A stretch of DNA of 64,000 nucleotides from Watersipora subatra (Eukaryota; Bryozoa; Gymnolaemata; Cheilostomatida; Watersiporidae), in NCBI RefSeq assembly GCF_963576615.1, contig NC_088711.1, positions 744,001-808,000 of the forward strand, given 5' to 3'. Each line of letters opens with the position of its first letter. Position 1 is the first letter of the stretch. Position numbers and translations under genes: made by a program. The notes below the pieces were generated by a model, which ran no database searches, was not told the DNA's origin, and saw only the letters and a program-made list of their open reading frames with translations. This document shows positions 1 through 59,934 of this stretch, one piece after another.

Positions 1-41
1 TATCTTTACATTCCTCGGGCGCGGGAGAACACTTTTCATCA
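1..41 (-). CDS. Partial CRD exon, cut by the window edge
   Basis: The acceptor is at 42-43 and the first 41 nt of the next CRD exon (one base plus [13 protein letters not shown]) lie at 1-41. The array or its downstream exons therefore continue to the left of this window. Whether a protease or other domain follows cannot be seen. Confidence 0.85.
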
Positions 42-3000
42 CTTCAAAACAAACAGAAAAATCATATCGAAATGGTTGAGCTCATGCTTGTAACTTCACA
101 GAAGTTAGTACAGAAAGCTATGAACAGTTACAGGTAGTGCGTATATGTGAAAACACACCCATGTGAAAACCGCATTAAATAAACCTAGTCAAGTTCTGTC
201 CATGGAGCAGAAGACAAAAAACTCGTATAAGACCATAAACTACTCAAAAATCCGGCATATGGTTTCTACATATTACAGTGAACGCAGAACATCGAAAATA
301 CAACTGACATCGCATCGTTTATGAGTGTAAAAATCTCAAGTAGCAAAATCACCTGCGCGCGTATCTATAAATTCACTGCAAACCTTCCAAACAATTCTTA
401 TACATGAAGACGATGTCGTCGTAGGATAATGAATACGATTTGTTTAAAAATATAATCATTGCGTACCACATCTCGTCTGCTCCAGTCCTGCAATCATAAG
501 TCTTGTCACATACGCTCAACCCGTGAATACATTTTCCGTCACCGCAAGGAAACTCATCTTCTCCACACATATTCATCATGTTGTCGATAGGCTCTGACAA
601 ACATCGCTCTTCCGGTAACTTCATGCACAGCATCACCAGCTGTTCTCGCCCTTCTCCGGAGCAATACTCATACGTAGCATCTGCAAAATGAACAGGTGAA
701 AATGACTAGCTAGAAATTTTTGAGACAACGAAATGTATTTTCGAAACAGTCATTACAAGAGGGCAAGATAGAAGCGTACTTAGACATGTATTTCTACAGA
801 GCTGTAACTCGAATCCCATCAGACATCTTGGGAACATCATGTTGCAGACACCCCATTTAGCCGTTAACTCATCTATAGTACAATTAGCCAGCGCCTTCTG
901 AATGGTCGTCGAGAAGTTCAAATAATCTTCTTCCGTCTCCAATTCAAAGATCTTATTTGGATAGGTGGTGTATGGAATGATATCTTTACATTCCTCGGGT
1001 GCAGGAGAACACTTTTCATCACTTCAAAACAAACAGAAAAATCATATCGAAATGGTTGAGCTCATGCTTGTAACTTCACAGAAGTTAGTACAGAAAGCTA
1101 TGAACAGTTACAGGTAATGCGTAAATGTGAAAACACACCCATGTGAAAACCGCATTAAATAAACCTAGTCAAGTTCTGTCCATGAAGCAGGAGACAATAA
1201 ACTCGTATAAGACCATAAAGTACTCAAAAATCCGGCATATGGTTTCTACATATTACAGTGAACGCAGAACATCGAAAATACAACTGACATCGCATCGTTT
1301 ATGAGTGTAAATATCTCAAGTAGCAAAATCACCTGCGCGCGTATCTATAAATTCACTGCAAACCTTCCAAATAATTCTTATACAAGAAAACGATGTCATC
1401 GTAGGATACTGAATACGATTTGTTTAAAAGTATAGTCATTGCGTACCACATCTCGTCTGCTCCAGTCCTGCAATCATAAGTCTTGTCACATACGCTCAGC
1501 CCGTGAATACATTTTCCGTCACCGCAAGGAAACTCATCTTCTCCACACATATTCATCATGTTGTCGATAGGCTCTGACAAACATCGCTCTTCCGGTAACT
1601 TCATGCACAGCATCACCAGCTGTTCTCGCCCTTCTCCGGAGCAATACTCGTACGTAGCATCTGCAAAATGAACAGGTGAAAATGACTAGCTAGAAATTTT
1701 TGAGACAACGAAATATATTTTCGAAACAGTCATTACAAGAGGGCAAGATAGAAGCGTACTTAGACATGTATTTCTACAGAGCTGTAACTCGAATCCCATC
1801 AGACATCTTGGGAACATCATGTTGCAGACACCCCATTTAGCCGTTAACTCATCTATAGTACAATTAGCCAGCGCCTTCTGAATGGTCGTCGAGAAGTTCA
1901 AATAGTCTTCTTCCGTCTCCAATTCAAAGATCTTATTTGGATAGGTGGTGTATGGAACGATATCTTTACATTCCTCGGGCGCAGGAGAACACTTTTCATC
2001 ACTTCAAAACAAACAGAAAAATCGTATCGAAATGGTTGAGCTCATGCTTGTAACTTCACAGAAGTTAGTACAGAAAGCTATGAACAGTTACAGGTAGTGC
2101 GTATATGTGAAAACACACCCATGTGAAAACCGCATTAAATAAACCTAGTCAAGTTCTGTCCATGGAGCAGAAGACAAAAAACTCGTATAAGACCATAAAG
2201 TACTCAAAAATCCGGCATATGGTTTCTACATATTACAGTGAACGCAGAACATCGAAAATACAACTGACATCGCATCGTTTATGAGTGTAAATATCTCAAG
2301 TAGCAAAATCACCTGCGCGCGTATCTATAAATTCACTGCAAACCTTCCAAACAATTCTTATACATGAAGACGATGTCGTCGTAGGATAATGAATACGATT
2401 TGTTTAAAAATATAATCATTGCGTACCACATCTCGTCTGCTCCAGTCCTGCAATCATAAGTCTTGTCACATACGCTCAACCCGTGAATACATTTTCCGTC
2501 ACCGCAAGGAAACTCATCTTCTCCACACATATTCATCATGTTGTCGATAGGCTCTGACAAACATCGATCTTCCGGTAACTTCATGCACAGCATCACCAGC
2601 TGTTCTCGCCCTTCTCCGGAGCAATACTCGTACGTAGCATCTGCAAAATGAACAGGTGAAAATGACTAGCTAGAAATTTTTGAGACAACGAAATGTATTT
2701 TCGAAACAGTCATTACAAGAGGGCAAGATAGAAGCGTACTTAGACATGTATTTCTACAGAGCTGTAACTCGAATCCCATCAGACATCTTGGGAACATCAT
2801 GTTGCAGACACCCCATTTAGCCGTTAACTCATCTATAGTACAATTAGCCAGCGCCTTCTGAATGGTCGTCGAGAAGTTCAAATAGTCTTCTTCCGTCTCC
2901 AATTCAAAGATCTTATTTGGATAGGTGGTGTATGGAACGATATCTTTACATTCCTCGGGCGCAGGAGAACACTTTTCATCACTTCAAAACAAACAGAAAA

Positions 3001-6000
3001 ATCATATCGAAATGGTTGAGCTCATGCTTGTAACTTCACAGAAGTTAGTACAGAAAGCTATGAACAGTTACAGGTAGTGCGTATATGTGAAAACACACCC
3101 ATGTGAAAACCGCATTAAATAAACCTAGTCAAGTTCTGTCCATGGAGCAGAAGACAAAAAACTCGTATAAGACCATAAAGTACTCAAAAATCCGGCATAT
3201 GGTTTCTACATATTACAGTGAACGCAGAACATCGAAAATACAACTGACATCGCATCGTTTATGAGTGTAAAAATCTCAAGTAGCAAAATCACCTGCGCGC
3301 GTATCTATAAATTCACTGCAAACCTTCCAAACAATTCTTATACATGAAGACGATGTCGTCGTAGGATAATGAATACGATTTGTTTAAAAATATAATCATT
3401 GCGTACCACATCTCGTCTGCTCCAGTCCTGCAATCATAAGTCTTGTCACATACGCTCAACCCGTGAATACATTTTCCGTCACCGCAAGGAAACTCATCTT
3501 CTCCACACATATTCATCATGTTGTCGATAGGCTCTGACAAACATCGATCTTCCGGTAACTTCATGCACAGCATCACCAGCTGTTCTCGCCCTTCTCCGGA
3601 GCAATACTCGTACGTAGCATCTGCAAAATGAACAGGTGAAAATGACTAGCTAGAAATTTTTGAGACAACGAAATGTATTTTCGAAACAGTCATTACAAGA
3701 GGGCAAGATAGAAGCGTACTTAGACATGTATTTCTACAGAGCTGTAACTCGAATCCCATCAGACATCTTGGGAACATCATGTTGCAGACACCCCATTTAG
3801 CCGTTAACTCATCTATAGTACAATTAGCCAGCGCCTTCTGAATGGTCGTCGAGAAGTTCAAATAATCTTCTTCCGTCTCCAATTCAAAGATCTTATTTGG
3901 ATAGGTGGTGTATGGAACGATATCTTTACATTCCTCAGGCGCAGGAGAACACTTTTCATCACTTCAAAACAAACAGAAAAATCATATCGAAATGGTTGAG
4001 CTCATGCTTGTAACATCACAGAAGTTAGTACAGAAAGCTATGAACAGTTACAGGTAATGCGTAAATGTGAAAACACACCCATGTGAAAACCGCATTAAAT
4101 AAACCTAGTCAAGTTCTGTCCATGAAGCAGGAGACAATAAACTCGTATAAGACCATAAAGTACTCAAAAATCCGGCTTTTGGTTTCTACATATTACAGTG
4201 AACGCAGAACATCGAAAATACAACTGACATCGCATCGTTTATGAGTGTAAATATCTCAAGTAGCAAAATCACCTGCGCGCGTATCTATAAATTCACTGCA
4301 AACCTTCCAAATAATTCTTATTCAAGAAGATGATGTCATCGTAGGATAATGAATACGATTTGTTTAAAAATATAATCATTGCGTACCACATCTCGTCTGC
4401 TCCAGTCCTGCAATCATAAGTCTTGTCACATACGCTCAACCCGTGAATACATTTTCCGTCACCGCAAGGAAACTCATCTTCTCCACACATATTCATCATG
4501 TTGTCGATAGGCTCTGACAAACATCGATCTTCCGGTAACTTCATGCACAGCATCACCAGCTGTTCTCGCCCTTCTCCGGAGCAATACTCGTACGTAGCAT
4601 CTGCAAAATGAACAGGTGAAAATGACTAGCTAGAAATTTTTGAGACAACGAAATGTATTTTCGAAACAGTCATTACAAGAGGGCAAGATAGAAGCGTACT
4701 TAGACATGTATTTCTACAGAGCTGTAACTCGAATCCCATCAGACATCTTGGGAACATCATGTTGCAGACACCCCATTTAGCCGTTAACTCATCTATAGTA
4801 CAATTAGCCAGCGCCTTCTGAATGGTCGTCGAGAAGTTCAAATAGTCTTCTTCCGTCTCCAATTCAAAGATCTTATTTGGATAGGTGGTGTATGGAACGA
4901 TATCTTTACATTCCTCGGGCGCAGGAGAACACTTTTCATCACTTCAAAACAAACAGAAAAATCATATCGAAATGGTTGAGCTCATGCTTGTAACTTCACA
5001 GAAGTTAGTACAGAAAGCTATGAACAGTTACAGGTAATGCGTAAATGTGAAAACACACCCATGTGAAAACCGCATTAAATAAACCTAGTCAAGTTCTGTC
5101 CATGAAGCAGGAGACAATAAACTCGTATAAGACCATAAAGTACTCAAAAATCCGGCTTTTGGTTTCTACATATTACAGTGAACGCAGAACATCGAAAATA
5201 CAACTGACATCGCATCGTTTATGAGTGTAAATGTCTGAAGTAGCAAAATCACCTGCGCGCGTATCTATAAATTCACTGCAAACCTTCCAAATAATTCTTA
5301 TACAAGAAGACGATGTCATCGTAGGATACTGAATACGATTTGTTTAAAAGTATAGTCATTGCGTACCACATCTCGTCTGCTCCAGTCCTGCAATCATAAG
5401 TCTTGTCACATACGCTCAGCCCGTGAATACATTTTCCGTCACCGCAAGGAAACTCATCTTCTCCACACATATTCATCATGTTGTCGATAGGCTCTGACAA
5501 ACATCGCTCTTCCGGTAACTTCATGCACAGCATCACCAGCTGTTCTCGCCCTTCTCCGGAGCAATACTCGTACGTAGCATCTGCAAAATGAACAGGTGAA
5601 AATGACTAGCTAGAAATTTTTGAGACAACGAAATATATTTTCGAAACAGTCATTACAAGAGGGCAAGATAGAAGCGTACTTAGACATGTATTTCTACAGA
5701 GCTGTAACTCGAATCCCATCAGACATCTTGGGAACATCATGTTGCAGACACCCCATTTAGCCGTTAACTCATCTATAGTACAATTAGCCAGCGCCTTCTG
5801 AATGGTCGTCGAGAAGTTCAAATAGTCTTCTTCCGTCTCCAATTCAAAGATCTTATTTGGATAGGTGGTGTATGGAACGATATCTTTACATTCCTCGGGC
5901 GCAGGAGAACACTTTTCATCACTTCAAAACAAACAGAAAAATCGTATCGAAATGGTTGAGCTCATGCTTGTAACTTCACAGAAGTTAGTACAGAAAGCTA

Positions 6001-9000
6001 TGAACAGTTACAGGTAGTGCGTATATGTGAAAACACACCCATGTGAAAACCGCATTAAATAAACCTAGTCAAGTTCTGTCCATGGAGCAGAAGACAAAAA
6101 ACTCGTATAAGACCATAAAGTACTCAAAAATCCGGCATATGGTTTCTACATATTACAGTGAACGCAGAACATCGAAAATACAACTGACATCGCATCGTTT
6201 ATGAGTGTAAATATCTCAAGTAGCAAAATCACCTGCGCGCGTATCTATAAATTCACTGCAAACCTTCCAAACAATTCTTATACATGAAGACGATGTCGTC
6301 GTAGGATAATGAATACGATTTGTTTAAAAATATAATCATTGCGTACCACATCTCGTCTGCTCCAGTCCTGCAATCATAAGTCTTGTCACATACGCTCAAC
6401 CCGTGAATACATTTTCCGTCACCGCAAGGAAACTCATCTTCTCCACACATATTCATCATGTTGTCGATAGGCTCTGACAAACATCGATCTTCCGGTAACT
6501 TCATGCACAGCATCACCAGCTGTTCTCGCCCTTCTCCGGAGCAATACTCGTACGTAGCATCTGCAAAATGAACAGGTGAAAATGACTAGCTAGAAATTTT
6601 TGAGACAACGAAATGTATTTTCGAAACAGTCATTACAAGAGGGCAAGATAGAAGCGTACTTAGACATGTATTTCTACAGAGCTGTAACTCGAATCCCATC
6701 AGACATCTTGGGAACATCATGTTGCAGACACCCCATTTAGCCGTTAACTCATCTATAGTACAATTAGCCAGCGCCTTCTGAATGGTCGTCGAGAAGTTCA
6801 AATAGTCTTCTTCCGTCTCCAATTCAAAGATCTTATTTGGATAGGTGGTGTATGGAACGATATCTTTACATTCCTCGGGCGCAGGAGAACACTTTTCATC
6901 ACTTCAAAACAAACAGAAAAATCATATCGAAATGGTTGAGCTCATGCTTGTAACTTCACAGAAGTTAGTACAGAAAGCTATGAACAGTTACAGGTAGTGC
7001 GTATATGTGAAAACACACCCATGTGAAAACCGCATTAAATAAACCTAGTCAAGTTCTGTCCATGGAGCAGAAGACAAAAAACTCGTATAAGACCATAAAG
7101 TACTCAAAAATCCGGCATATGGTTTCTACATATTACAGTGAACGCAGAACATCGAAAATACAACTGACATCGCATCGTTTATGAGTGTAAAAATCTCAAG
7201 TAGCAAAATCACCTGCGCGCGTATCTATAAATTCACTGCAAACCTTCCAAACAATTCTTATACATGAAGACGATGTCGTCGTAGGATAATGAATACGATT
7301 TGTTTAAAAATATAATCATTGCGTACCACATCTCGTCTGCTCCAGTCCTGCAATCATAAGTCTTGTCACATACGCTCAACCCGTGAATACATTTTCCGTC
7401 ACCGCAAGGAAACTCATCTTCTCCACACATATTCATCATGTTGTCGATAGGCTCTGACAAACATCGATCTTCCGGTAACTTCATGCACAGCATCACCAGC
7501 TGTTCTCGCCCTTCTCCGGAGCAATACTCGTACGTAGCATCTGCAAAATGAACAGGTGAAAATGACTAGCTAGAAATTTTTGAGACAACGAAATGTATTT
7601 TCGAAACAGTCATTACAAGAGGGCAAGATAGAAGCGTACTTAGACATGTATTTCTACAGAGCTGTAACTCGAATCCCATCAGACATCTTGGGAACATCAT
7701 GTTGCAGACACCCCATTTAGCCGTTAACTCATCTATAGTACAATTAGCCAGCGCCTTCTGAATGGTCGTCGAGAAGTTCAAATAATCTTCTTCCGTCTCC
7801 AATTCAAAGATCTTATTTGGATAGGTGGTGTATGGAACGATATCTTTACATTCCTCAGGCGCAGGAGAACACTTTTCATCACTTCAAAACAAACAGAAAA
7901 ATCATATCGAAATGGTTGAGCTCATGCTTGTAACATCACAGAAGTTAGTACAGAAAGCTATGAACAGTTACAGGTAATGCGTAAATGTGAAAACACACCC
8001 ATGTGAAAACCGCATTAAATAAACCTAGTCAAGTTCTGTCCATGAAGCAGGAGACAATAAACTCGTATAAGACCATAAAGTACTCAAAAATCCGGCTTTT
8101 GGTTTCTACATATTACAGTGAACGCAGAACATCGAAAATACAACTGACATCGCATCGTTTATGAGTGTAAATATCTCAAGTAGCAAAATCACCTGCGCGC
8201 GTATCTATAAATTCACTGCAAACCTTCCAAATAATTCTTATTCAAGAAGATGATGTCATCGTAGGATAATGAATACGATTTGTTTAAAAATATAATCATT
8301 GCGTACCACATCTCGTCTGCTCCAGTCCTGCAATCATAAGTCTTGTCACATACGCTCAACCCGTGAATACATTTTCCGTCACCGCAAGGAAACTCATCTT
8401 CTCCACACATATTCATCATGTTGTCGATAGGCTCTGACAAACATCGATCTTCCGGTAACTTCATGCACAGCATCACCAGCTGTTCTCGCCCTTCTCCGGA
8501 GCAATACTCGTACGTAGCATCTGCAAAATGAACAGGTGAAAATGACTAGCTAGAAATTTTTGAGACAACGAAATGTATTTTCGAAACAGTCATTACAAGA
8601 GGGCAAGATAGAAGCGTACTTAGACATGTATTTCTACAGAGCTGTAACTCGAATCCCATCAGACATCTTGGGAACATCATGTTGCAGACACCCCATTTAG
8701 CCGTTAACTCATCTATAGTACAATTAGCCAGCGCCTTCTGAATGGTCGTCGAGAAGTTCAAATAGTCTTCTTCCGTCTCCAATTCAAAGATCTTATTTGG
8801 ATAGGTGGTGTATGGAACGATATCTTTACATTCCTCGGGCGCAGGAGAACACTTTTCATCACTTCAAAACAAACAGAAAAATCATATCGAAATGGTTGAG
8901 CTCATGCTTGTAACTTCACAGAAGTTAGTACAGAAAGCTATGAACAGTTACAGGTAATGCGTAAATGTGAAAACACACCCATGTGAAAACCGCATTAAAT

Positions 9001-12000
9001 AAACCTAGTCAAGTTCTGTCCATGAAGCAGGAGACAATAAACTCGTATAAGACCATAAAGTACTCAAAAATCCGGCTTTTGGTTTCTACATATTACAGTG
9101 AACGCAGAACATCGAAAATACAACTGACATCGCATCGTTTATGAGTGTAAATATCTCAAGTAGCAAAATCACCTGCGCGCGTATCTATAAATTCACTGCA
9201 AACCTTCCAAATAATTCTTATACAAGAAGACGATGTCATCGTAGGATACTGAATACGATTTGTTTAAAAGTATAGTCATTGCGTACCACATCTCGTCTGC
9301 TCCAGTCCTGCAATCATAAGTCTTGTCACATACGCTCAGCCCGTGAATACATTTTCCGTCACCGCAAGGAAACTCATCTTCTCCACACATATTCATCATG
9401 TTGTCGATAGGCTCTGACAAACATCGCTCTTCCGGTAACTTCATGCACAGCATCACCAGCTGTTCTCGCCCTTCTCCGGAGCAATACTCGTACGTAGCAT
9501 CTGCAAAATGAACAGGTGAAAATGACTAGCTAGAAATTTTTGAGACAACGAAATGTATTTTCGAAACAGTCATTACAAGAGGGCAAGATAGAAGCGTACT
9601 TAGACATGTATTTCTACAGAGCTGTAACTCGAATCCCATCAGACATCTTGGGAACATCATGTTGCAGACACCCCATTTAGCCGTTAACTCATCTATAGTA
9701 CAATTAGCCAGCGCCTTCTGAATGGTCGTCGAGAAGTTCAAATAATCTTCTTCCGTCTCCAATTCAAAGATCTTATTTGGATAGGTGGTGTATGGAACGA
9801 TATCTTTACATTCCTCGGGTGCAGGAGAACACTTTTCATCACTTCAAAACAAACAGAAAAATCATATCGAAATGGTTGAGCTCATGCTTGTAACTTCACA
9901 GAAGTTAGTACAGAAAGCTATGAACAGTTACAGGTAATGCGTAAATGTGAAAACACACCCATGTGAAAACCGCATTAAATAAACCTAGTCAAGTTCTGTC
10001 CATGAAGCAGGAGACAATAAACTCGTATAAGACCATAAAGTACTCAAAAATCCGGCTTTTGGTTTCTACATATTACAGTGAACGCAGAACATCGAAAATA
10101 CAACTGACATCGCATCGTTTATGAGTGTAAATATCTCAAGTAGCAAAATCACCTGCGCGCGTATCTATAAATTCACTGCAAACCTTCCAAATAATTCTTA
10201 TACAAGAAGACGATGTCATCGTAGGATACTGAATACGATTTGTTTAAAAGTATAGTCATTGCGTACCACATCTCGTCTGCTCCAGTCCTGCAATCATAAG
10301 TCTTGTCACATACGCTCAGCCCGTGAATACATTTTCCGTCACCGCAAGGAAACTCATCTTCTCCACACATATTCATCATGTTGTCGATAGGCTCTGACAA
10401 ACATCGCTCTTCCGGTAACTTCATGCACAGCATCACCAGCTGTTCTCGCCCTTCTCCGGAGCAATACTCGTACGTAGCATCTGCAAAATGAACAGGTGAA
10501 AATGACTAGCTAGAAATTTTTGAGACAACGAAATATATTTTCGAAACAGTCATTACAAGAGGGCAAGATAGAAGCGTACTTAGACATGTATTTCTACAGA
10601 GCTGTAACTCGAATCCCATCAGACATCTTGGGAACATCATGTTGCAGACACCCCATTTAGCCGTTAACTCATCTATAGTACAATTAGCCAGCGCCTTCTG
10701 AATGGTCGTCGAGAAGTTCAAATAGTCTTCTTCCGTCTCCAATTCAAAGATCTTATTTGGATAGGTGGTGTATGGAACGATATCTTTACATTCCTCGGGC
10801 GCAGGAGAACACTTTTCATCACTTCAAAACAAACAGAAAAATCATATCGAAATGGTTGAGCTCATGCTTGTAACTTCACAGAAGTTAGTACAGAAAGCTA
10901 TGAACAGTTACAGGTAATGCGTAAATGTGAAAACACACCCATGTGAAAACCGCATTAAATAAACCTAGTCAAGTTCTGTCCATGAAGCAGGAGACAATAA
11001 ACTCGTATAAGACCATAAAGTACTCAAAAATCCGGCATATGGTTTCTACATATTACAGTGAACGCAGAACATCGAAAATACAACTGACATCGCATCGTTT
11101 ATGAGTGTAAATATCTCAAGTAGCAAAATCACCAGCGCGCGTATCTATAAATTCACTGCAAACCTTCCAAACAATTTTTATACATGAAGACGATGTCGTC
11201 GTAGGATAATGAATACGATTTGTTTAAAAATATAATCATTGCGTACCACATCTCGTCTGCTCCAGTCCTGCAATCATAAGTCTTGTCACATACGCTCAAC
11301 CCGTGAATACATTTTCCGTCACCGCAAGGAAACTCATCTTCTCCACACATATTCATCATGTTGTCGATAGGCTCTGACAAACATCGATCTTCCGGTAACT
11401 TCATGCACAGCATCACCAGCTGTTCTCGCCCTTCTCCGGAGCAATACTCGTACGTAGCATCTGCAAAATGAACAGGTGAAAATGACTAGCTAGAAATTTT
11501 TGAGACAACGAAATGTATTTTCGAAACAGTCATTACAAGAGGGCAAGATAGAAGCGTACTTAGACATGTATTTCTACAGAGCTGTAACTCGAATCCCATC
11601 AGACATCTTGGGAACATCATGTTGCAGACACCCCATTTAGCCGTTAACTCATCTATAGTACAATTAGCCAGCGCCTTCTGAATGGTCGTCGAGAAGTTCA
11701 AATAATCTTCTTCCGTCTCCAATTCAAAGATCTTATTTGGATAGGTGGTGTATGGAACGATATCTTTACATTCCTCGGGCGCAGGAGAACACTTTTCATC
11801 ACTTCAAAACAAACAGAAAAATCATATCGAAATGGTTGAGCTCATGCTTGTAACTTCACAGAAGTTAGTACAGAAAGCTATGAACAGTTACAGGTAATGC
11901 GTAAATGTGAAAACACACCCATGTGAAAACCGCATTAAATAAACCTAGTCAAGTTCTGTCCATGAAGCAGGAGACAATAAACTCGTATAAGACCATAAAG

Positions 12001-33000: not shown

Positions 33001-36000
33001 GCAATACTCGTACGTAGCATCTGCAAAATGAACAGGTGAAAATGACTAGCTAAAAATTTTTGAGACAACGAAATGTATTTTCGAAACAGTCATTACAAGA
33101 GGGCAAGATAGAAGCGTACTTAGACATGTATTTCTACAGAGCTGTAACTCGAATCCCATCAGACATCTTGGGAACATCATGTTGCAGACACCCCATTTAG
33201 CCGTTAACTCATCTATAGTACAATTAGCCAGCGCCTTCTGAATGGTCGTCGAGAAGTTCAAATAGTCTTCTTCCGTCTCCAATTCAAAGATCTTATTTGG
33301 ATAGGTGGTGTATGGAACGATATCTTTACATTCCTCGGGCGCAGGAGAACACTTTTCATCACTTCAAAACAAACAGAAAAATCATATCGAAATGGTTGAG
33401 CTCATGCTTGTAACTTCACAGAAGTTAGTACAGAAAGCTATGAACAGTTACAGGTAATGCGTAAATGTGAAAACACACCCATGTGAAAACCGCATTAAAT
33501 AAACCTAGTCAAGTTCTGTCCATGAAGCAGGAGACAATAAACTCGTATAAGACCATAAAGTACTCAAAAATCCGGCATATGGTTTCTACATATTACAGTG
33601 AACGCAGAACATCGAAAATACAACTGACATCGCATCGTTTATGAGTGTAAATATCTCAAGTAGCAAAATCACCTGCGCGCGTATCTATAAATTCACTGCA
33701 AACCTTCCAAATAATTCTTATACAAGAAGATGATGTCATCGTAGGATACTGAATACGATTTGTTTAAAAGTATAGTCATTGCGTACCACATCTCGTCTGC
33801 TCCAGTCCTGCAATCATAAGTCTTGTCACATACGCTCAACCCGTGAATACATTTTCCGTCACCGCAAGGAAACTCATCTTCTCCACACATATTCATCATG
33901 TTGTCGATAGGCTCTGACAAACATCGCTCTTCCGGTAACTTCATGCACAGCATCACCAGCTGTTCTCGCCCTTCTCCGGAGCAATACTCGTACGTAGCAT
34001 CTGCAAAATGAACAGGTGAAAATGACTAGCTAGAAATTTTTGAGACAACGAAATGTATTTTCGAAACAGTCATTACAAGAGGGCAAGATAGAAGCGTACT
34101 TAGACATGTATTTCTACAGAGCTGTAACTCGAATCCCATCAGACATCTTGGGAACATCATGTTGCAGACACCCCATTTAGCCGTTAACTCATCTATAGTA
34201 CAATTAGCCAGCGCCTTCTGAATGGTCGTCGAGAAGTTCAAATAGTCTTCTTCCGTCTCCAATTCAAAGATCTTATTTGGATAGGTGGTGTATGGAACGA
34301 TATCTTTACATTCCTCGGGCGCAGGAGAACACTTTTCAGCACTTCAAAACAAACAGAAAAATCATATCGAAATGGTTGAGCTCATGCTTGTAACTTCACA
34401 GAAGTTAGTACAGAAAGCTATGAACAGTTGCAGGTAATGCGTAAATGTGAAAACACACCCATGTGAAAACCGCATTAAATAAACCTAGTCAAGTTCTGTC
34501 CATGAAGCAGGAGACAATAAACTCGTATAAGACCATAAAGTACTCAAAAATCCGGCTTTTGGTTTCTACATATTACAGTGAACGCAGAACATCGAAAATA
34601 CAACTGACATCGCATCGTTTATGAGTGTAAATATCTCAAGTAGCAAAATCACCTGCGCACGTATCTATAAATTCACTGCAAACCTTCCAAATAATTCTTA
34701 TACAAGAAGACGATGTCATCGTAGGATACTGAATACGATTTGTTTAAAAGTATAGTCATTGCGTACCACATCTCGTCTGCTCCAGTCCTGCAATCATAAG
34801 TCTTGTCACATACGCTCAGCCCGTGAATACATTTTCCGTCACCGCAAGGAAACTCATCTTCTCCACACATATTCATCATGTTGTCGATAGGCTCTGACAA
34901 ACATCGCTCTTCCGGTAACTTCATGCACAGCATCACCAGCTGTTCTCGCCCTTCTCCGGAGCAATACTCGTACGTAGCATCTGCAAAATGAACAGGTGAA
35001 AATGACTAGCTAGAAATTTTTGAGACAACGAAATATATTTTCGAAACAGTCATTACAAGAGGGCAAGATAGAAGCGTACTTAGACATGTATTTCTACAGA
35101 GCTGTAACTCGAATCCCATCAGACATCTTGGGAACATCATGTTGCAGACACCCCATTTAGCCGTTAACTCATCTATAGTACAATTAGCCAGCGCCTTCTG
35201 AATGGTCGTCGAGAAGTTCAAATAGTCTTCTTCCGTCTCCAATTCAAAGATCTTATTTGGATAGGTGGTGTATGGAACGATATCTTTACATTCCTCGGGC
35301 GCAGGAGAACACTTTTCATCACTTCAAAACAAACAGAAAAATCATATCGAAATGGTTGAGCTCATGCTTGTAACTTCACAGAAGTTAGTACAGAAAGCTA
35401 TGAACAGTTACAGGTAGTGCGTATATGTGAAAACACACCCATGTGAAAACCGCATTAAATAAACCTAGTCAAGTTCTGTCCATGGAGCAGAAGACAAAAA
35501 ACTCGTATAAGACCATAAAGTACTCAAAAATCCGGCATATGGTTTCTACATATTACAGTGAACGCAGAACATCGAAAATACAACTGACATCGCATCGTTT
35601 ATGAGTGTAAAAATCTCAAGTAGCAAAATCACCTGCGCGCGTATCTATAAATTCACTGCAAACCTTCCAAACAATTCTTATACATGAAGACGATGTCGTC
35701 GTAGGATAATGAATACGATTTGTTTAAAAATATAATCATTGCGTACCACATCTCGTCTGCTCCAGTCCTGCAATCATAAGTCTTGTCACATACGCTCAAC
35801 CCGTGAATACATTTTCCGTCACCGCAAGGAAACTCATCTTCTCCACACATATTCATCATGTTGTCGATAGGCTCTGACAAACATCGATCTTCCGGTAACT
35901 TCATGCACAGCATCACCAGCTGTTCTCGCCCTTCTCCGGAGCAATACTCGTACGTAGCATCTGCAAAATGAACAGGTGAAAATGACTAGCTAGAAATTTT

Positions 36001-39000
36001 TGAGACAACGAAATGTATTTTCGAAACAGTCATTACAAGAGGGCAAGATAGAAGCGTACTTAGACATGTATTTCTACAGAGCTGTAACTCGAATCCCATC
36101 AGACATCTTGGGAACATCATGTTGCAGACACCCCATTTAGCCGTTAACTCATCTATAGTACAATTAGCCAGCGCCTTCTGAATGGTCGTCGAGAAGTTCA
36201 AATAGTCTTCTTCCGTCTCCAATTCAAAGATCTTATTTGGATAGGTGGTGTATGGAACGATATCTTTACATTCCTCGGGCGCAGGAGAACACTTTTCATC
36301 ACTTCAGAACAAACAGAAAAATCATATCGAAATGGTTGAGCTCATGCTTGTAACTTCACAGAAGTTAGTACAGAAAGCTATGAACAGTTACAGGTAATGC
36401 GTAAATGTGAAAACACACCCATGTGAAAACCGCATTAAATAAACCTAGTCAAGTTCTGTCTATGGAGCAGAAGACAACAAACTCGTATAAGACCATAAAG
36501 GACTCAAAAATCCGGCATATGGTTTCTACATATTACAGTGAACGCAGAACATTGAAAATACAACTGACATCGCATCGTTTATGAGTGTAAATATCTCAAG
36601 TAGCAAAATCACCTGCGCGCGTATCTATAAATTCACTGCAAACCTTCCAAATAATTCTTATACAAGAAGACGATGTCATCGTAGGATACTGAATACGATT
36701 TGTTTAAAAGTATAGTCATTGCGTACCACATCTCGTCTGCTCCAGTCCTGCAATCATAAGTCTTGTCACATACGCTCAGCCCGTGAATACATTTTCCGTC
36801 ACCGCAAGGAAACTCATCTTCTCCACACATATTCATCATGTTGTCGATAGGCTCTGACAAACATCGCTCTTCCGGTAACTTCATGCACAGCATCACCAGC
36901 TGTTCTCGCCCTTCTCCGGAGCAATACTCGTACGTAGCATCTGCAAAATGAACAGGTGAAAATGACTAGCTAGAAATTTTTGAGACATCGAAATGTATTT
37001 TCGAAACAGTCATTACAAGAGGGCAAGATAGAAGCGTACTTAGACATGTATTTCTACAGAGCTGTAACTCGAATCCCATCAGACATCTTGGGAACATCAT
37101 GTTGCAGACACCCCATTTAGCCGTCAACTCATTTATAGTACAATTAGCCAGCGCCTTCTGAATGGTCGTCGAGAAGTTCAAATAGTCTTCTTCCGTCTCC
37201 AATTCAAAGATCTTATTTGGATAGGTGGTGTATGGAACGATATCTTTACATTCCTCAGGCGCAGGAGAACACTTTTCATCACTTCAAAACAAACAGAAAA
37301 ATCATATCGAAATGGTTGAGCTCATGCTTGTAACTTCACAGAAGTTAGTACAGAAAGCTATGAACAGTTACAGGTAATGCGTAAATGTGAAAACACACCC
37401 ATGTGAAAACTGCATTAAATAAACCTAGTCAAGTTCTGTCCATGAAGCAGGAGACAATAAACTCGTATAAGACCATAATGTACTCAGAAATCCGGCTTTT
37501 GGTTTCTACATATTACAGTGAACGCAGAACATCGAAAATACAACTGACATCGCATCGTTTATGAGTGTAAATATCTCAAGTAGCAAAATCACCTGCGCGC
37601 GTATCTATAAATTCACTGCAAACCTTCCAAATAATTCTTATACAAGAAGACGATGTCATCGTAGGATACTGAATACGATTTGTTTAAAAGTATAGTCATT
37701 GCGTACCACATCTCGTCTGCTCCAGTCCTGCAATCATAAGTCTTGTCACATACGCTCAGCCCGTGAATACATTTTCCGTCACCGCAAGGAAACTCATCTT
37801 CTCCACACATATTCATCATGTTGTCGATAGGCTCTGACAAACATCGCTCTTCCGGTAACTTCATGCACAGCATCACCAGCTGTTCTCGCCCTTCTCCGGA
37901 GCAATACTCGTACGTAGCATCTGCAAAATGAACAGGTGAAAATGACTAGCTAGAAATTTTTGAGACAACGAAATATATTTTCGAAACAGTCATTACAAGA
38001 GGGCAAGATAGAAGCGTACTTAGACATGTATTTCTACAGAGCTGTAACTCGAATCCCATCAGACATCTTGGGAACATCATGTTGCAGACACCCCATTTAG
38101 CCGTTAACTCATCTATAGTACAATTAGCCAGCGCCTTCTGAATGGTCGTCGAGAAGTTCAAATAGTCTTCTTCCGTCTCCAATTCAAAGATCTTATTTGG
38201 ATAGGTGGTGTATGGAACGATATCTTTACATTCCTCGGGCGCAGGAGAACACTTTTCATCACTTCAAAACAAACAGAAAAATCATATCGAAATGGTTGAG
38301 CTCATGCTTGTAACTTCACAGAAGTTAGTACAGAAAGCTATGAACAGTTACAGGTAGTGCGTATATGTGAAAACACACCCATGTGAAAACCGCATTAAAT
38401 AAACCTAGTCAAGTTCTGTCCATGGAGCAGAAGACAAAAAACTCGTATAAGACCATAAAGTACTCAAAAATCCGGCATATGGTTTCTACATATTACAGTG
38501 AACGCAGAACATCGAAAATACAACTGACATCGCATCGTTTATGAGTGTAAAAATCTCAAGTAGCAAAATCACCTGCGCGCGTATCTATAAATTCACTGCA
38601 AACCTTCCAAACAATTCTTATACATGAAGACGATGTCGTCGTAGGATAATGAATACGATTTGTTTAAAAATATAATCATTGCGTACCACATCTCGTCTGC
38701 TCCAGTCCTGCAATCATAAGTCTTGTCACATACGCTCAACCCGTGAATACATTTTCCGTCACCGCAAGGAAACTCATCTTCTCCACACATATTCATCATG
38801 TTGTCGATAGGCTCTGACAAACATCGATCTTCCGGTAACTTCATGCACAGCATCACCAGCTGTTCTCGCCCTTCTCTGGAGCAATACTCGTACGTAGCAT
38901 CTGCAAAATGAACAGGTGAAAATGACTAGCTAGAAATTTTTGAGACAACGAAATGTATTTTCGAAACAGTCATTACAAGAGGGCAAGATAGAAGCGTACT

Positions 39001-42000
39001 TAGACATGTATTTCTACAGAGCTGTAACTCGAATCCCATCAGACATCTTGGGAACATCATGTTGCAGACACCCCATTTAGCCGTTAACTCATCTATAGTA
39101 CAATTAGCCAGCGCCTTCTGAATGGTCGTCGAGAAGTTCAAATAGTCTTCTTCCGTCTCCAATTCAAAGATCTTATTTGGATAGGTGGTGTATGGAACGA
39201 TATCTTTACATTCCTCGGGCGCAGGAGAACACTTTTCATCACTTCAGAACAAACAGAAAAATCATATCGAAATGGTTGAGCTCATGCTTGTAACTTCACA
39301 GAAGTTAGTACAGAAAGCTATGAACAGTTACAGGTAATGCGTAAATGTGAAAACACACCCATGTGAAAACCGCATTAAATAAACCTAGTCAAGTTCTGTC
39401 TATGGAGCAGAAGACAACAAACTCGTATAAGACCATAAAGGACTCAAAAATCCGGCATATGGTTTCTACATATTACAGTGAACGCAGAACATTGAAAATA
39501 CAACTGACATCGCATCGTTTATGAGTGTAAATATCTCAAGTAGCAAAATCACCTGCGCGCGTATCTATAAATTCACTGCAAACCTTCCAAATAATTCTTA
39601 TACAAGAAGACGATGTCATCGTAGGATACTGAATACGATTTGTTTAAAAGTATAGTCATTGCGTACCACATCTCGTCTGCTCCAGTCCTGCAATCATAAG
39701 TCTTGTCACATACGCTCAGCCCGTGAATACATTTTCCGTCACCGCAAGGAAACTCATCTTCTCCACACATATTCATCATGTTGTCGATAGGCTCTGACAA
39801 ACATCGCTCTTCCGGTAACTTCATGCACAGCATCACCAGCTGTTCTCGCCCTTCTCCGGAGCAATACTCGTACGTAGCATCTGCAAAATGAACAGGTGAA
39901 AATGACTAGCTAGAAATTTTTGAGACATCGAAATGTATTTTCGAAACAGTCATTACAAGAGGGCAAGATAGAAGCGTACTTAGACATGTATTTCTACAGA
40001 GCTGTAACTCGAATCCCATCAGACATCTTGGGAACATCATGTTGCAGACACCCCATTTAGCCGTCAACTCATTTATAGTACAATTAGCCAGCGCCTTCTG
40101 AATGGTCGTCGAGAAGTTCAAATAGTCTTCTTCCGTCTCCAATTCAAAGATCTTATTTGGATAGGTGGTGTATGGAACGATATCTTTACATTCCTCAGGC
40201 GCAGGAGAACACTTTTCATCACTTCAAAACAAACAGAAAAATCATATCGAAATGGTTGAGCTCATGCTTGTAACTTCACAGAAGTTAGTACAGAAAGCTA
40301 TGAACAGTTACAGGTAATGCGTAAATGTGAAAACACACCCATGTGAAAACTGCATTAAATAAACCTAGTCAAGTTCTGTCCATGAAGCAGGAGACAATAA
40401 ACTCGTATAAGACCATAATGTACTCAGAAATCCGGCTTTTGGTTTCTACATATTACAGTGAACGCAGAACATCGAAAATACAACTGACATCGCAGCGTTT
40501 ATGAGTGTAAATATCTCAAGTAGCAAAATCACCTGCGCGAGTATCTATAAATTCACTGCAAACCTTCCAAATAATTCTTATACAAGAAGACGATGTCATC
40601 GTAGGATACTGAATACGATTTGTTTAAAAGTATAGTCATTGCGTACCACATCTCGTCTGCTCCAGTCCTGCAATCATAAGTCTTGTCACATACGCTCAGC
40701 CCGTGAATACATTTTCCGTCACCGCAAGGAAACTCATCTTCTCCACACATATTCATCATGTTGTCGATAGGCTCTGACAAACATCGCTCTTCCGGTAACT
40801 TCATGCACAGCATCACCAGCTGTTCTCGCCCTTCTCCGGAGCAATACTCGTACGTAGCATCTGCAAAATGAACAGGTGAAAATGACTAGCTAGAAATTTT
40901 TGAGACAACGAAATATATTTTCGAAACAGTCATTACAAGAGGGCAAGATAGAAGCGTACTTAGACATGTATTTCTACAGAGCTGTAACTCGAATCCCATC
41001 AGACATCTTGGGAACATCATGTTGCAGACACCCCATTTAGCCGTTAACTCATCTATAGTACAATTAGCCAGCGCCTTCTGAATGGTCGTCGAGAAGTTCA
41101 AATAGTCTTCTTCCGTCTCCAATTCAAAGATCTTATTTGGATAGGTGGTGTATGGAACGATATCTTTACATTCCTCGGGCGCAGGAGAACACTTTTCATC
41201 ACTTCAAAACAAACAGAAAAATCATATCGAAATGGTTGAGCTCATGCTTGTAACTTCACAGAAGTTAGTACAGAAAGCTATGAACAGTTACAGGTAGTGC
41301 GTATATGTGAAAACACACCCATGTGAAAACCGCATTAAATAAACCTAGTCAAGTTCTGTCCATGGAGCAGAAGACAAAAAACTCGTATAAGACCATAAAG
41401 TACTCAAAAATCCGGCATATGGTTTCTACATATTACAGTGAACGCAGAACATCGAAAATACAACTGACATCGCATCGTTTATGAGTGTAAAAATCTCAAG
41501 TAGCAAAATCACCTGCGCGCGTATCTATAAATTCACTGCAAACCTTCCAAACAATTCTTATACATGAAGACGATGTCGTCGTAGGATAATGAATACGATT
41601 TGTTTAAAAATATAATCATTGCGTACCACATCTCGTCTGCTCCAGTCCTGCAATCATAAGTCTTGTCACATACGCTCAACCCGTGAATACATTTTCCGTC
41701 ACCGCAAGGAAACTCATCTTCTCCACACATATTCATCATGTTGTCGATAGGCTCTGACAAACATCGATCTTCCGGTAACTTCATGCACAGCATCACCAGC
41801 TGTTCTCGCCCTTCTCTGGAGCAATACTCGTACGTAGCATCTGCAAAATGAACAGGTGAAAATGACTAGCTAGAAATTTTTGAGACAACGAAATGTATTT
41901 TCGAAACAGTCATTACAAGAGGGCAAGATAGAAGCGTACTTAGACATGTATTTCTACAGAGCTGTAACTCGAATCCCATCAGACATCTTGGGAACATCAT

Positions 42001-44666
42001 GTTGCAGACACCCCATTTAGCCGTTAACTCATCTATAGTACAATTAGCCAGCGCCTTCTGAATGGTCGTCGAGAAGTTCAAATAGTCTTCTTCCGTCTCC
42101 AATTCAAAGATCTTATTTGGATAGGTGGTGTATGGAACGATATCTTTACATTCCTCGGGCGCAGGAGAACACTTTTCATCACTTCAGAACAAACAGAAAA
42201 ATCATATCGAAATGGTTGAGCTCATGCTTGTAACTTCACAGAAGTTAGTACAGAAAGCTATGAACAGTTACAGGTAATGCGTAAATGTGAAAACACACCC
42301 ATGTGAAAACCGCATTAAATAAACCTAGTCAAGTTCTGTCTATGGAGCAGAAGACAACAAACTCGTATAAGACCATAAAGGACTCAAAAATCCGGCATAT
42401 GGTTTCTACATATTACAGTGAACGCAGAACATTGAAAATACAACTGACATCGCATCGTTTATGAGTGTAAATATCTCAAGTAGCAAAATCACCTGCGCGC
42501 GTATCTATAAATTCACTGCAAACCTTCCAAATAATTCTTATACAAGAAGACGATGTCATCGTAGGATACTGAATACGATTTGTTTAAAAGTATAGTCATT
42601 GCGTACCACATCTCGTCTGCTCCAGTCCTGCAATCATAAGTCTTGTCACATACGCTCAGCCCGTGAATACATTTTCCGTCACCGCAAGGAAACTCATCTT
42701 CTCCACACATATTCATCATGTTGTCGATAGGCTCTGACAAACATCGCTCTTCCGGTAACTTCATGCACAGCATCACCAGCTGTTCTCGCCCTTCTCCGGA
42801 GCAATACTCGTACGTAGCATCTGCAAAATGAACAGGTGAAAATGACTAGCTAGAAATTTTTGAGACATCGAAATGTATTTTCGAAACAGTCATTACAAGA
42901 GGGCAAGATAGAAGCGTACTTAGACATGTATTTCTACAGAGCTGTAACTCGAATCCCATCAGACATCTTGGGAACATCATGTTGCAGACACCCCATTTAG
43001 CCGTCAACTCATTTATAGTACAATTAGCCAGCGCCTTCTGAATGGTCGTCGAGAAGTTCAAATAGTCTTCTTCCGTCTCCAATTCAAAGATCTTATTTGG
43101 ATAGGTGGTGTATGGAACGATATCTTTACATTCCTCAGGCGCAGGAGAACACTTTTCATCACTTCAAAACAAACAGAAAAATCATATCGAAATGGTTGAG
43201 CTCATGCTTGTAACTTCACAGAAGTTAGTACAGAAAGCTATGAACAGTTACAGGTAATGCGTAAATGTGAAAACACACCCATGTGAAAACTGCATTAAAT
43301 AAACCTAGTCAAGTTCTGTCCATGAAGCAGGAGACAATAAACTCGTATAAGACCATAATGTACTCAGAAATCCGGCTTTTGGTTTCTACATATTACAGTG
43401 AACGCAGAACATCGAAAATACAACTGACATCGCATCGTTTATGAGTGTAAATATCTCAAGTAGCAAAATCACCTGCGCGCGTATCTATAAATTCACTGCA
43501 AACCTTCCAAATAATTCTTATACAAGAAGACGATGTCATCGTAGGATACTGAATACGATTTGTTTAAAAGTATAGTCATTGCGTACCACATCTCGTCTGC
43601 TCCAGTCCTGCAATCATAAGTCTTGTCACATACGCTCAGCCCGTGAATACATTTTCCGTCACCGCAAGGAAACTCATCTTCTCCACACATATTCATCATG
43701 TTGTCGATAGGCTCTGACAAACATCGCTCTTCCGGTAGCTTCATGCAAATGTTTTCCAATTCTTGCGTTTGGTTCTTCAAACATCCTTTCTCGATTGCCT
43801 CTAAACATATCGAACAAAACTAGATAACAACAAAAATCATTCAATATAGCATTTTAAAACTTGTTAGCATTTTTATATTTTCTTTAAATCACTTTAAAGC
43901 TTTTACTAATTACTCTACAGATATAATAGTTTAGATTCTCAGACTTTTCGTCTTTCCGTTCCATCCATTTTTTACCTAAACAGGTCTGTCGACATATATG
44001 CTGTTCCGACCCCAGCAGACATCTGGGAAAGGTCAGCTTACAAAACAGGGAGCGGGCCACACATTCATCTATCTTACAACTTTCCAGTTGGTTCTTGACT
44101 TCCACCATGAAGTTTGATTTCTCATCAGAAGTGTTCAGGCTGTAGACGGTGTTTGACAATGTTGTATATGGTACAATGTCTCTGCATTCCACTGGTACAT
44201 CACTACTGCATGCTTCAGCACTGCAATACAAGATTGGTTCTCATTTCATCTTTTCATGTTTTACCAGTTTACCCATGATTAGTTTCTTGATTTGTTCTTT
44301 TTGCATCATAAACAATCTGTATGTAGTAGTAATGGAGATAAGAGGAAATACATATGTAGCTATTATATCAATTATAGGCCATGACATTAGTGACCCTGTC
44401 TCCAATGCATAATAGCATAGCTAATCAAGGTGCTGGGCCTGAATGTCAGTGAGCAAGCCTAGGTGTGGGCTATCTTACATTATCCAACAAGTACTCTTCC
44501 AATGCAATTTTAAATTTATCAATACATATTATCTCTGTGAGATAAACAGAAAGACCAACCGGACCAGGCCGCAGATATCTGATATGAGACCTGTCTGGGG
44601 CCACAATATGACATAAAAGTGGGCCTAGGTAACTGTAGAGTGAGCTAGTATGGTGCAGGTTTTAAG

Positions 44667-55816: not shown

Positions 55817-56514
55817 TGTATAGCCGTAAGTACGGCTTTAACACAGGCTGCAATAACTAAAAATCAATTTTACCAGGAACGTTTAAGCGCGCTGCCAGTT
55901 AGAAAAGAAAGAGAAAGCTTGCGACCATGTGTACACGCACATGCATATTGTTTAGCATAGCATCAAGCATTTGCTTTATGAAATCGTCAGCTCAGCTGGA
56001 CCACGCCTAATTAAGACGTCGCATTGTTGATTCAATAAAGTTATTCGTCAAAGCATAAGAGCGGAGAGTAAATAGACTCAACTGACAGTGTTATATTGTA
56101 ATATAAGCACTCTACCCCCTCTCAGATGTATTAGTACTAACATAATCTGTCAAGCCAGCAGACCTGCAGCAAGCGGCTGAAGAAAACCTGTGATACATGT
56201 GATACCATGTACACCCTCAAGCACCCTGCTGACCTCTTGTAGTATGTGTGATACCATGTAACACCATCTAACCCCGCCTGCTATCTAGTGGTCTGTGGTG
56301 GTACCATGTAACACTCTCCAGCACCTTGCTGCCATCTTGTAATAAGTGTGATGTTAAGCGCATGTAACACCCTTTAGCACCCTGGTGACTTCTTGTAGTA
56401 CGATTGATACCATGTGACACACTCTAGTGCCCTGCAGTACCACAATGATTATCTTATGATAGTCGTAGCAGACATCAGTAGGTGTAGGAATAAGCTGAGC
56501 ATGTCAACGCCGGA
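55817..56514. other. Upstream region of the giant gene with a degenerate repeat
   Basis: This stretch should hold the promoter and 5' untranslated region, but I see no convincing TATA box or start site. At about 56190-56445 there are four to five degenerate copies of a segment of about 60 bp built on TGATACCATGTAACACC and CACCCTGCTGACC. Confidence 0.5.
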
Positions 56515-59520: not shown

Positions 59521-59930
59521 TTCTTATTCGCTACTATGCATTTGTATAACGTATTTGTTTACAAATAAATAGCTCTAAATGTATTTATATATATGCTGCT
59601 ATCTATATAAATACTATTTGTATTATCTTATGTAACTACAAACTTACTTCCAAGTAGATGAAAGTAGGTCCATAGACTTAGAAAGCTTTTGGCAACGAAT
59701 ACTCTACTATCCAGCACTACACGCTAGTGCCCATTGCCATTGTGTATCCCCAGACACTAACATGTAATCACATGTACTAGAAGGCACTAACATGCAATGC
59801 TATGCGCTATTGTGCATTACCATGCACTCCTAATCTCACAAACACCCAAGTGAGATTCTACAGAGCTACCTTGAGCAACCTCGCACCAGGAGTTGTGACG
59901 CAAATGTAAAGACAGAGAGTAAAGAAAAGG
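59521..59930. other. Intergenic stretch, nothing recognised
   Basis: AT-rich sequence with a few CACTA/ATGCACT-like motifs at 59715-59825. No gene or repeat family is supported. Confidence 0.5.
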
Positions 59931-59934
59931 TTCA

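Follow-up and report, generated by a model that had tools for sequence, protein, structure and literature searches.

Frizzled and sFRP proteins recognize Wnt lipids with their CRDs; in LDLa modules, an acidic calcium cage mediates ligand binding. The type II transmembrane serine proteases, such as corin, matriptase, and enteropeptidase, combine an N-terminal anchor with stems of LDLa, Fz, or SEA domains, and the pairing of SEA domains and mucin linkers is characteristic of membrane mucins and of transmembrane proteases. At the level of gene architecture, the closest described system is kringle IV of LPA, with two exons of ~160 and 182 bp in a unit of 5.6 kb, present in 1 to ~40 units, and with KIV-2 as a coding tandem repeat of highly homologous two-exon units that each encode one disulphide module (PMC11462820). 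At the level of the protein, the closest is MUC16, a very large tethered surface glycoprotein with SEA modules and 60 repeats of ~156 residues (PMC6780288).

The locus described here lies on chromosome 4 (C4; OY755161.1) of the 783.72-Mb assembly of the bryozoan Watersipora subatra and is reminiscent of all three systems. We consider it probable that one gene of this animal encodes a giant SEA-tethered surface glycoprotein in which 78 LDLa and Fz-like CRD modules would serve as a filament, and the protein appears to be an unusually large case of lengthening by the copying of one exon pair. Similar to LPA KIV-2, whole exon-plus-intron units that are phase-compatible and near-identical stand in tandem, each with two exons and one disulphide-bonded type of module. 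The main differences from LPA KIV-2 are the module, which is LDLa-CRD rather than kringle, the size of the unit (980 bp rather than 5.6 kb), the number of array copies (~75), and the rest of the protein. Like MUC16 and other tethered mucins, the predicted product is a very large surface glycoprotein that combines SEA modules with many consecutive repeats of similar residue length. Unlike MUC16, the bryozoan repeats are LDLa-CRD rather than mucin, the anchor-like segment is N-terminal, and the Ser/Thr/Pro-rich parts, which form the bulk of the ectodomain in tethered mucins, are short, accounting for 193 + 59 of 12,506 residues. The SEA or LDLa/Fz-type modules are shared with the corin-type proteases, as an N-terminal anchor would be if E1 encodes one; these proteases in contrast have a handful of such modules rather than 78 pairs; no protease, SRCR, or CUB family was matched in Pfam on the pieces scanned. 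Assignment as a type II transmembrane serine protease was ruled out, as the frame ends after the last CRD and the C-terminal piece contains no protease family.

The window, which is the whole 64,000-nucleotide stretch of C4 that was analysed, contains 43 complete 980-bp units at 961–43100 and partial units at 1–960 and 43101–43747, as visualized by blastn self-comparison; these units are 97.9–100% identical to the reference unit, with no gaps. The coding strand is the minus strand, as for all exons given below. The array (1..43747) passes the left edge of the window and runs 30 kb further, to C4:714111, for a contiguous length of 73.6 kb. Each unit holds two exons that together add 152 residues: exon A (242 nt; for example 780..1021, repeated every 980 bp up to 42920–43161), which encodes the first seven CRD cysteines and supplies, with its first base, the final nucleotide of the last cysteine codon in the LDLa before it, and exon B (214 nt; for example 467..680, repeated every 980 bp up to 42607–42820), which encodes the last three CRD cysteines and the LDLa. 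An intron of 99 nt lies between A and B, and one of 425 nt leads from B to the next A. At the right-hand end, exon B1 (43587..43800) is a chimaera of array sequence (LDLa and the CRD end) and diverged sequence, with the array boundary at 43747. All 75 exon-A copies extracted by coordinate from the entire array, and all 74 standard exon-B copies (B1 and B76, whose ends are diverged, are left out of the count), are free of stops and have AG/GT borders, and all 74 core modules contain 152 residues and 16 cysteines, ten of CRD type and six of LDLa type. Two A exons carry an Asp-to-Ala change at module position 2.

A preliminary description of the window had proposed, for 1..43800, an array of 44 or more near-identical modules of this size and cysteine content, with every copy intact, splice phases that join throughout, and more than 6,600 residues in the window. 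These proposals are borne out: exon B1 ends at 43800, the window encodes 44 modules (44 × 152 = 6,688 residues), and the whole gene model contains 78 LDLa-CRD pairs in one reading frame. The copies outside the window, both ends of the gene, the N-terminal part, and the minus-strand orientation are additional to that description. A search of the whole genome with exon A returned 78 near-full matches, every one at C4:703–788 kb, and at the sensitivity of this search the array is a single locus; a dispersed satellite was ruled out on the same observation. Mutually exclusive alternative exons of the Dscam type were also ruled out, as the copies are nearly identical and form one phase series. An Rfam scan of the window gave 0 matches. 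A search for mitochondrial COX1 gave 0 hits, and searches for molluscan haemocyanin and GFP, whose controls were equally uninformative, gave none.

The gene model, which runs on the minus strand from C4:795959 down to C4:701616, comprises 167 exons, which join in order into 12,506 codons of one frame; the diverged first and last copies are part of it, and the only stop is the terminal one. It predicts a protein of 1.41 MDa with a pI of 4.3, composed of a membrane-anchor-like segment, three SEA domains with Ser/Thr/Pro-rich linkers, and the 78 LDLa-CRD pairs, the frame stopping 11 residues past the last CRD cysteine. Chance open frames were rejected on the diverged terminal exons, which are open and in phase. 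The borders of these and the N-terminal exons were chosen by eye to keep the frame, and their openness is thus partly by construction. The last two CRDs are set apart from the remainder by an intron of 9.4 kb that harbours a degenerate retroelement, and the sole direct repeats found in the search for a pair bounding this element are 126 nt long and 238 nt apart. A truncated exon-A fragment accompanies the retroelement on the 3′ side of the array; it can be skipped with the frame unchanged.

The model begins with exon E1 (51829..51959), which encodes a basic stretch, KLNKKRR, and then a hydrophobic segment of ~24 residues. Because the model lacks a first exon, this segment could be either a type II membrane anchor or a signal peptide. 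SEA1 is encoded by exons E2 (50757..50866) and E3 (50305..50375), both placed by the gene model and the SEA scan, and by exon E4 (49729..49892), which contains a putative self-cleavage motif, G-S-V-I-V. Exon E5 (48775..49353) encodes a mucin-like linker of 193 residues (54% S+T+P) with a 21-bp tandem repeat at 49010–49322. SEA2 is divided between E6 (48377..48548; gene model and SEA scan) and E7 (48126..48295) and contains a second candidate cleavage motif, G-S-L-I-A. Exon E8 (46623..46799), in which an additional in-frame acceptor is present, encodes the second Ser/Thr/Pro-rich linker, of 59 residues (49% S+T+P). The first half of SEA3 lies in E9 (45629..45773; gene model and SEA scan) and the second half in E10 (45281..45438), and no clear cleavage motif is seen in SEA3. 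Exon E11 (44872..45037) joins the end of the SEA3 region to the first LDLa (LDLa0) and is followed by exon A0 (43976..44220), which encodes the diverged first CRD and has 46% amino acid identity to array exon A. Each scanned alone against the SEA family (PF01390; cut-off 26.4), SEA1, SEA2, and SEA3 score 50.3, 54.0, and 33.7 bits, and scanned together they score 120.1 bits; a profile search of the PDB with SEA1 returned only an unrelated chain (E = 0.14).

The preliminary description had named the module as a Frizzled CRD and an LDLa and had proposed a check of the spliced module against both Pfam families. The LDLa half of this assignment stands. Matches to PF00057 exceed the Pfam cut-off of 24.1 for two modules (54.0 bits), LDLa0 (30.4 bits), and the C-terminal piece (27.9 bits), one six-cysteine LDLa spacing pattern is matched 78 times in the model protein, and the array residues D, D, D, and E align with LDLR modules at the presumed positions of the acidic calcium cage. 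The CRD half does not hold at the level of Pfam: the array CRD has no match to Fz (PF01392) at a threshold of E = 10, in a search whose HMMER filters discard most matches above E ~0.1. The diverged terminal copies come closer while staying under the curated cut-off of 32.1 bits, with 18.5 bits (E = 0.003) for the first CRD, scanned as A0 plus B1, and 24.7 bits (E = 3.7e-5) for the last. The ten-cysteine CRD spacing is found in 77 of 78 CRDs, the first CRD having one extra cysteine. When compared by hhalign with six Fz domains that this genome encodes, the array CRD profile scores 28.6 (E = 2.2e-4, probability 45%), and 0 of 150 cysteine-preserving shuffles does as well (maximum score 23.4). 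From these weak terminal-copy matches and a profile comparison that beats the shuffles, the array CRD is called Fz-like. A search of the PDB with its profile returned no solved Fz structure, only a RAG1 chain (E = 0.59), and the best Pfam match over the CRD, DUF3822 (E = 7e-4 across two modules; 19.3 bits, cut-off 24.9), was taken as chance.

Variation among the copies is consistent with ongoing exchange under selection. The 74 units comprise 42 distinct DNA sequences, 23 of which occur once, yet at the protein level no more than 10 sequences are found among the 74 modules. Variable columns are fewer in exons (16 of 456) than in introns (46 of 524; Fisher p = 0.0009), while the intron between A and B is nearly as uniform as the exons (pi of 0.0062 versus 0.0057–0.0059). 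Purifying selection on the array exons is visible in the seven synonymous and nine nonsynonymous changes (pN/pS = 0.31, p = 0.02, a test based on 16 sites). At the diverged ends, matches of whole-unit blastn are confined to exon sequence, with 97 bp at A77 and 72 bp at E11, and do not extend to any intron, and dN/dS against the array is 0.15 for A0 and 0.23 for A77, with dS of 3.1 and 1.2, close to or past saturation; these values indicate that the terminal exons diverge under constraint. Block duplications of unit types (ABCABC, HGHGHG, and LMHNBG twice) show exchange of several units at a time. The array probably grew through unequal exchange, as human LPA kringle-IV-2 did, a process that, by moving whole 980-bp units in blocks, would both expand it and keep its copies uniform. 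The two introns of each unit match in phase, so that gain or loss of units does not break the frame, and one would expect the gene to be a coding VNTR whose length varies. With 42 DNA types and 10 protein types, constrained exons, and a freer long intron, the locus offers a clean system for concerted evolution.

The same variation bears on whether the array is as long, and as alive, as it seems. The mean HiFi read is ~6.05 kb (13.30 Gb in 2.20 million reads), one segment of 12,363 bp recurs in the array as an exact second copy, and only 81% of 6,050-bp windows in the array are unique, so the copy number is uncertain, and far fewer real units, with the 73.6 kb partly an assembly artefact, would be conceivable. 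We regard such inflation as improbable, since 42 distinct units, 23 of them single, could not be produced by read duplication at a consensus QV of 63; moreover, after the 12.4-kb repeat the longest exact self-match at a whole-unit lag is 4.4 kb, shorter than the mean read, and the region is without N. Tens of units should be real even if 75 is inexact, barring two mixed haplotypes. It seems very improbable indeed that the array is a satellite, non-coding or decaying, derived from part of a gene that was multiplied as DNA and no longer yields a giant protein: the truncated exon-A fragment and retroelement would fit such decay, but the fragment is skippable, the 149 core exons are open with intact borders, exon variation is depressed, and both reading frame and phase hold through the terminal modules and the N-terminal exons.

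If the gene is transcribed and translated as modelled, its product may act in other ways than as a tethered filament. A multivalent sink or receptor for a ligand such as Wnt, lipid, lipoprotein, or microbe, with no structural role, would suit the retained LDLa calcium residues and the avidity expected of near-identical modules. We judge this reading somewhat unlikely: whereas seven near-full-length Fz domains in this genome score at least 100 bits, the array CRD has drifted beyond detection by Pfam Fz and PDB Fz searches and thus gives no indication of a conserved Wnt groove, and the SEA domains and Ser/Thr/Pro-rich N-terminal part suit a surface-coat protein equally well or better. A secreted, untethered polymer built into the exoskeleton, cuticle, or attachment layer is a shade less credible still. 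The animal is encrusting, the polymer is acidic, cysteine-rich, and predicted to bind calcium, and E1 taken alone could start at an internal Met and act as a signal peptide, but the basic KKRR ahead of the hydrophobic segment resembles a type II anchor, and the SEA domains with their mucin-like linkers likewise speak for a membrane protein. The preliminary description had left open a fibre or a decoy; the anchor-like, SEA, and Ser/Thr/Pro-rich N-terminal part shifts that reading toward a tethered surface glycoprotein.

As a tethered surface glycoprotein, the product would extend from its N-terminal anchor through three SEA domains and two Ser/Thr/Pro-rich linkers into alternating LDLa and Fz-like CRD modules, with no protease. 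The modules (pI 4.3) would form a long extracellular filament, calcium-bound through its 78 LDLa modules and bearing ~three N-glycan sites on each module (three sequons per module, 233 across the array region), held on the cell by the anchor and perhaps releasable by cleavage at SEA1. Such a strand of folded disulphide modules might serve, in the manner of a tethered mucin, as a barrier, a lubricant, or an adhesive. Tentatively, and with more doubt than confidence, we suggest an undescribed class, a ‘folded-module mucin’: a ~1.4-MDa tethered bryozoan filament of 78 calcium-binding pairs with more than two hundred N-glycan sites, SEA self-release, and length variation between individuals. No description of this architecture was found among the titles and abstract openings considered, and to our knowledge the run of Fz-type CRDs is the longest known. 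A signalling-type domain, the Frizzled-like CRD, would here have become a polymer building block, comparable to LPA kringles and MUC16 repeats, in a model protein close in scale to the largest proteins. Such genes are presumably easily broken or missed by annotation and short-read methods, and the number of giant modular proteins in little-studied phyla is probably underestimated as a result.

A mosaic of the same domain types is present elsewhere in this genome, at C4:37.65–37.72 Mb, where several LDLa exons occur with CRD-type and EGF-like exons. Its copies are mutually diverged, unlike those of the array, and its best matches are E = 0.013 to array exon A, 6e-4 to A0, and 4e-7 to the exon-B LDLa.

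The tandem exon array claimed in the preliminary description is real: alignment of the unit to the window recovers 43 full 980-bp units at positions 961-43100, with partial units at both ends, 0 gaps, and 97.9-100% identity to the reference unit. The coding strand is the minus strand, and each unit is composed of exon A (242 nt), exon B (214 nt), and introns of 99 and 425 nt. Exon B ends in TG and exon A begins with T, such that the codon for the last LDLa cysteine spans the B-A junction, and exon A ends in one codon base that is completed by exon B. Because these split codons complete each other, the frame is kept with any number of units. The window spans positions 744001-808000 of chromosome 4 (OY755161.1; C4 in coordinates below) of assembly tzWatSuba1.1 (783,720,542 bp, 239 contigs), for which the Watersipora subatra genome note gives a span of 783.70 Mb, 240 scaffolds, and 16,835 protein-coding genes (PMC12902671). 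With flanks of 80 kb on the left and 20 kb on the right added, the contiguous array occupies C4:714111-787747 (73,637 bp, N-free) and contains 74 full units and two partial units. An extra A-B pair is located at C4:704160-704717, beyond a 9.4-kb intron that precedes the last A-B pairs and holds a truncated exon-A fragment (C4:704934-704986) and a degenerate retroelement that retains part of a reverse transcriptase (RVT_1 E = 1.5e-12; positions 900-10000 of the flanking piece L009, C4:705-714 kb). A genome-wide search with exon A, in which 80 candidates were scored and counts are lower bounds, returned at least 80 matches; 78 near-full matches and the truncated fragment all fall within C4:703-788 kb, and the remaining listed match, on another chromosome (C5), contains a stop and is at chance level (E = 4).

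Joining 167 exons from C4:795959 to C4:701616 yields one frame of 12,506 codons, with a partial first codon and a sole stop at its end, and a model protein of 1.41 MDa and pI 4.3. The core exons were placed by coordinate. For the N-terminal and terminal exons, borders were selected by eye from GT/AG sites that fit the phase, and the openness of these exons is therefore partly by construction. The gene structure as modeled is considered highly probable. In the modeled protein, a hydrophobic segment preceded by a basic stretch (exon E1) comes first, followed by SEA1 (E2-E4), a linker of 193 residues that is 54% Ser+Thr+Pro (E5), SEA2 (E6-E7), a second linker of 59 residues that is 49% Ser+Thr+Pro (E8), SEA3 (E9-E10, perhaps with the start of E11), and LDLa0 (E11). 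From there, CRD and LDLa modules alternate up to the last CRD, whose exon places the stop 11 residues past the final CRD cysteine. All 78 LDLa modules match the cysteine-spacing pattern, as do 77 of the 78 CRDs; the first CRD has one extra Cys. Because the exon 5′ of E1 was not found, E1 can be read in two ways: it may be a type II anchor, which is favored by KLNKKRR ahead of the hydrophobic stretch, or it may be a signal peptide started from an internal Met. Remains of a LINE-type reverse transcriptase are present upstream of E1 (window 52889-54300, minus strand), with one fragment just under the RVT_1 cut-off (E = 8e-7, 29.4 versus 29.6 bits), and the exon missing from the 5′ end may be located past these remains.

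The SEA and LDLa assignments are supported by Pfam: SEA1, SEA2, and SEA3 score 50.3, 54.0, and 33.7 bits (cut-off 26.4), and LDLa scores 30.4 bits in the N-terminal piece, 54.0 in two array modules, and 27.9 in the C-terminal piece (cut-off 24.1). Support is weakest for the CRD: Pfam Fz gives no match to the array CRD at a threshold of E = 10, and its matches to the first CRD (E = 0.003, 18.5 bits) and the last CRD (E = 3.7e-5, 24.7 bits) are below the 32.1-bit cut-off. A profile of four CRDs of the giant gene (array, first, last, and penultimate) was aligned by hhalign with six Fz domains of the same genome, giving a score of 28.6 (E = 2.2e-4, probability 45%). This score exceeds those of 150 shuffles of the non-cysteine columns (best 23.4, mean 12.9) and 150 full shuffles (best 20.5), which argues that the similarity goes beyond cysteine spacing. 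On sequence grounds, the array CRD is classed as Fz-like and not as a member of PF01392. The same profile retrieved no Fz structure among solved structures, only one RAG1 chain (E = 0.59). Of the Pfam families scored over the array CRD, DUF3822 ranks highest (E = 7e-4 with two modules and 0.13 with a single module); it is under cut-off and was taken as chance.

AG/GT borders are present, and stops absent, in each of the 75 array exons A and 74 standard exons B, and every one of the 74 modules is 152 residues long with 16 cysteines. Taken alone, this intactness is weak evidence of coding, given the 98-99% identity of the copies; stronger evidence is that the 74 units comprise 42 distinct DNA sequences and the 74 modules only 10 distinct protein sequences. 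Variable columns are fewer in exons (16/456) than in introns (46/524; Fisher p = 0.0009), and the exonic changes are 7 synonymous and 9 nonsynonymous (pN/pS 0.31, p = 0.02). The intronic excess, however, sits in the long intron (π 0.020): the short A-B intron (0.0062) shows roughly as little variation as the exons (0.0059 and 0.0057), which counts against reading the difference as exon constraint. The diverged exon A0 at the 5′ array edge and the terminal exon A77 retain all seven cysteines at 46% and 66% protein identity to the array, with dN/dS against the array of 0.15 and 0.23; the dS values, 3.1 and 1.2, approach or exceed saturation. The dN/dS ratios for A76, B1, B76, and B77 are 0.12, 0.31, 0.38, and 0.42; eight pairs were compared in all, and dS was not estimable for the B78 pair or for A0 paired with A77.

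In all likelihood, the array arose by unequal exchange. When each unit joins the first earlier representative no more than 3 bases away, 18 classes result, and their transcript order at the array start (ABCABCABDEFGHGHGHIABDEFGHGHGHHGJGHHKBBHKBBLMHNBGMLMHNBG...) contains copied blocks of two to twelve units, the mark of such exchange. Units differ by 1.2% on average (maximum 2.7%) and also recombine internally or by conversion, since 158 of 1,225 informative-site pairs fail the four-gamete test. The mean read is ∼6.05 kb (13.30 Gb in 2.20 million reads), and within the array a 6,050-bp window is unique in 81% of cases. The longest exact self-match, at a 12-unit lag, is 12,363 bp and exceeds the mean read (among lags of whole units, the second longest spans 4,366 bp), and the 12-unit block may have been doubled or collapsed in the assembly. 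Counting distinct units, of which there are 42, gives a firmer lower bound on copy number, in view of the primary consensus QV of 63.2 (PMC12902671) and if haplotypes are unmixed. The genome note states 39-fold coverage (PMC12902671), whereas 13.30 Gb over 783.7 Mb amounts to 17-fold. Many unrelated minisatellites with 15-29-bp periods and as many as 97 copies occur both upstream of the N-terminal part of the gene and inside it (window 46876-47384, 51995-52696, 56513-58070, 59927-60306, and 60910-62580), suggesting that the region, or else the genome, is prone to tandem expansion. A second region at C4:37.65-37.72 Mb (pieces L027-L033, plus strand) carries many LDLa, several diverged CRD-type, and EGF-like exons, and may be related to the source from which the array modules came.

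LDLa modules fold around calcium, and in the array LDLa the four acidic residues at the calcium-cage positions described in the LDLR literature align with LDLR modules. Each module has a pI of 4.3 and three N-glycan sequons (NFS, NCT, and NAT; 233 across the array region), and SEA1 contains G-S-V-I-V, the type of self-breakage site found in SEA domains of mucins and matriptase. Based on these features, we tentatively favor a product that would form a long, acidic filament with bound calcium and N-glycans, tethered at the cell surface and able to be released at SEA1; its topology, cleavage, calcium and glycan loading, and role are conjectural. The giant protein resembles the stems of corin-type proteases but lacks a protease. 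It is also reminiscent of MUC16, whose 156-residue repeat occurs 60 times and which carries 16 SEA modules (PMC6780288), except that its bulk does not consist of mucin repeats. As described in that source, the SEA domain of MUC1 self-cleaves, and MUC16 is not cut at a conserved SEA site (PMC6780288). At the gene level, the array is similar to LPA KIV-2, in which each unit likewise has two short exons and two introns and encodes one disulfide module (PMC11462820). Open-license paper searches for tandem architectures of Fz, LDLa, and SEA listed no description of this protein, which does not prove its absence from print.

Just past the 3′ end of the giant gene and convergent with it, two collagen-type Gly-X-Y open frames, named by sequence only, are present on the plus strand at C4:694-698 kb (positions 174-692 and 3426-4063 of the flanking piece L008). 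An open frame at window 62735-63046 (minus strand) matches a zinc-binding dehydrogenase (PF13602, E = 2.4e-6) and is probably quinone-oxidoreductase or VAT1-like. On C5, a 20-kb stretch at 57.629-57.649 Mb holds three related open frames with one Fz domain each (pieces L018, L019, and L021); two share a strand, and the third is on the opposite strand.
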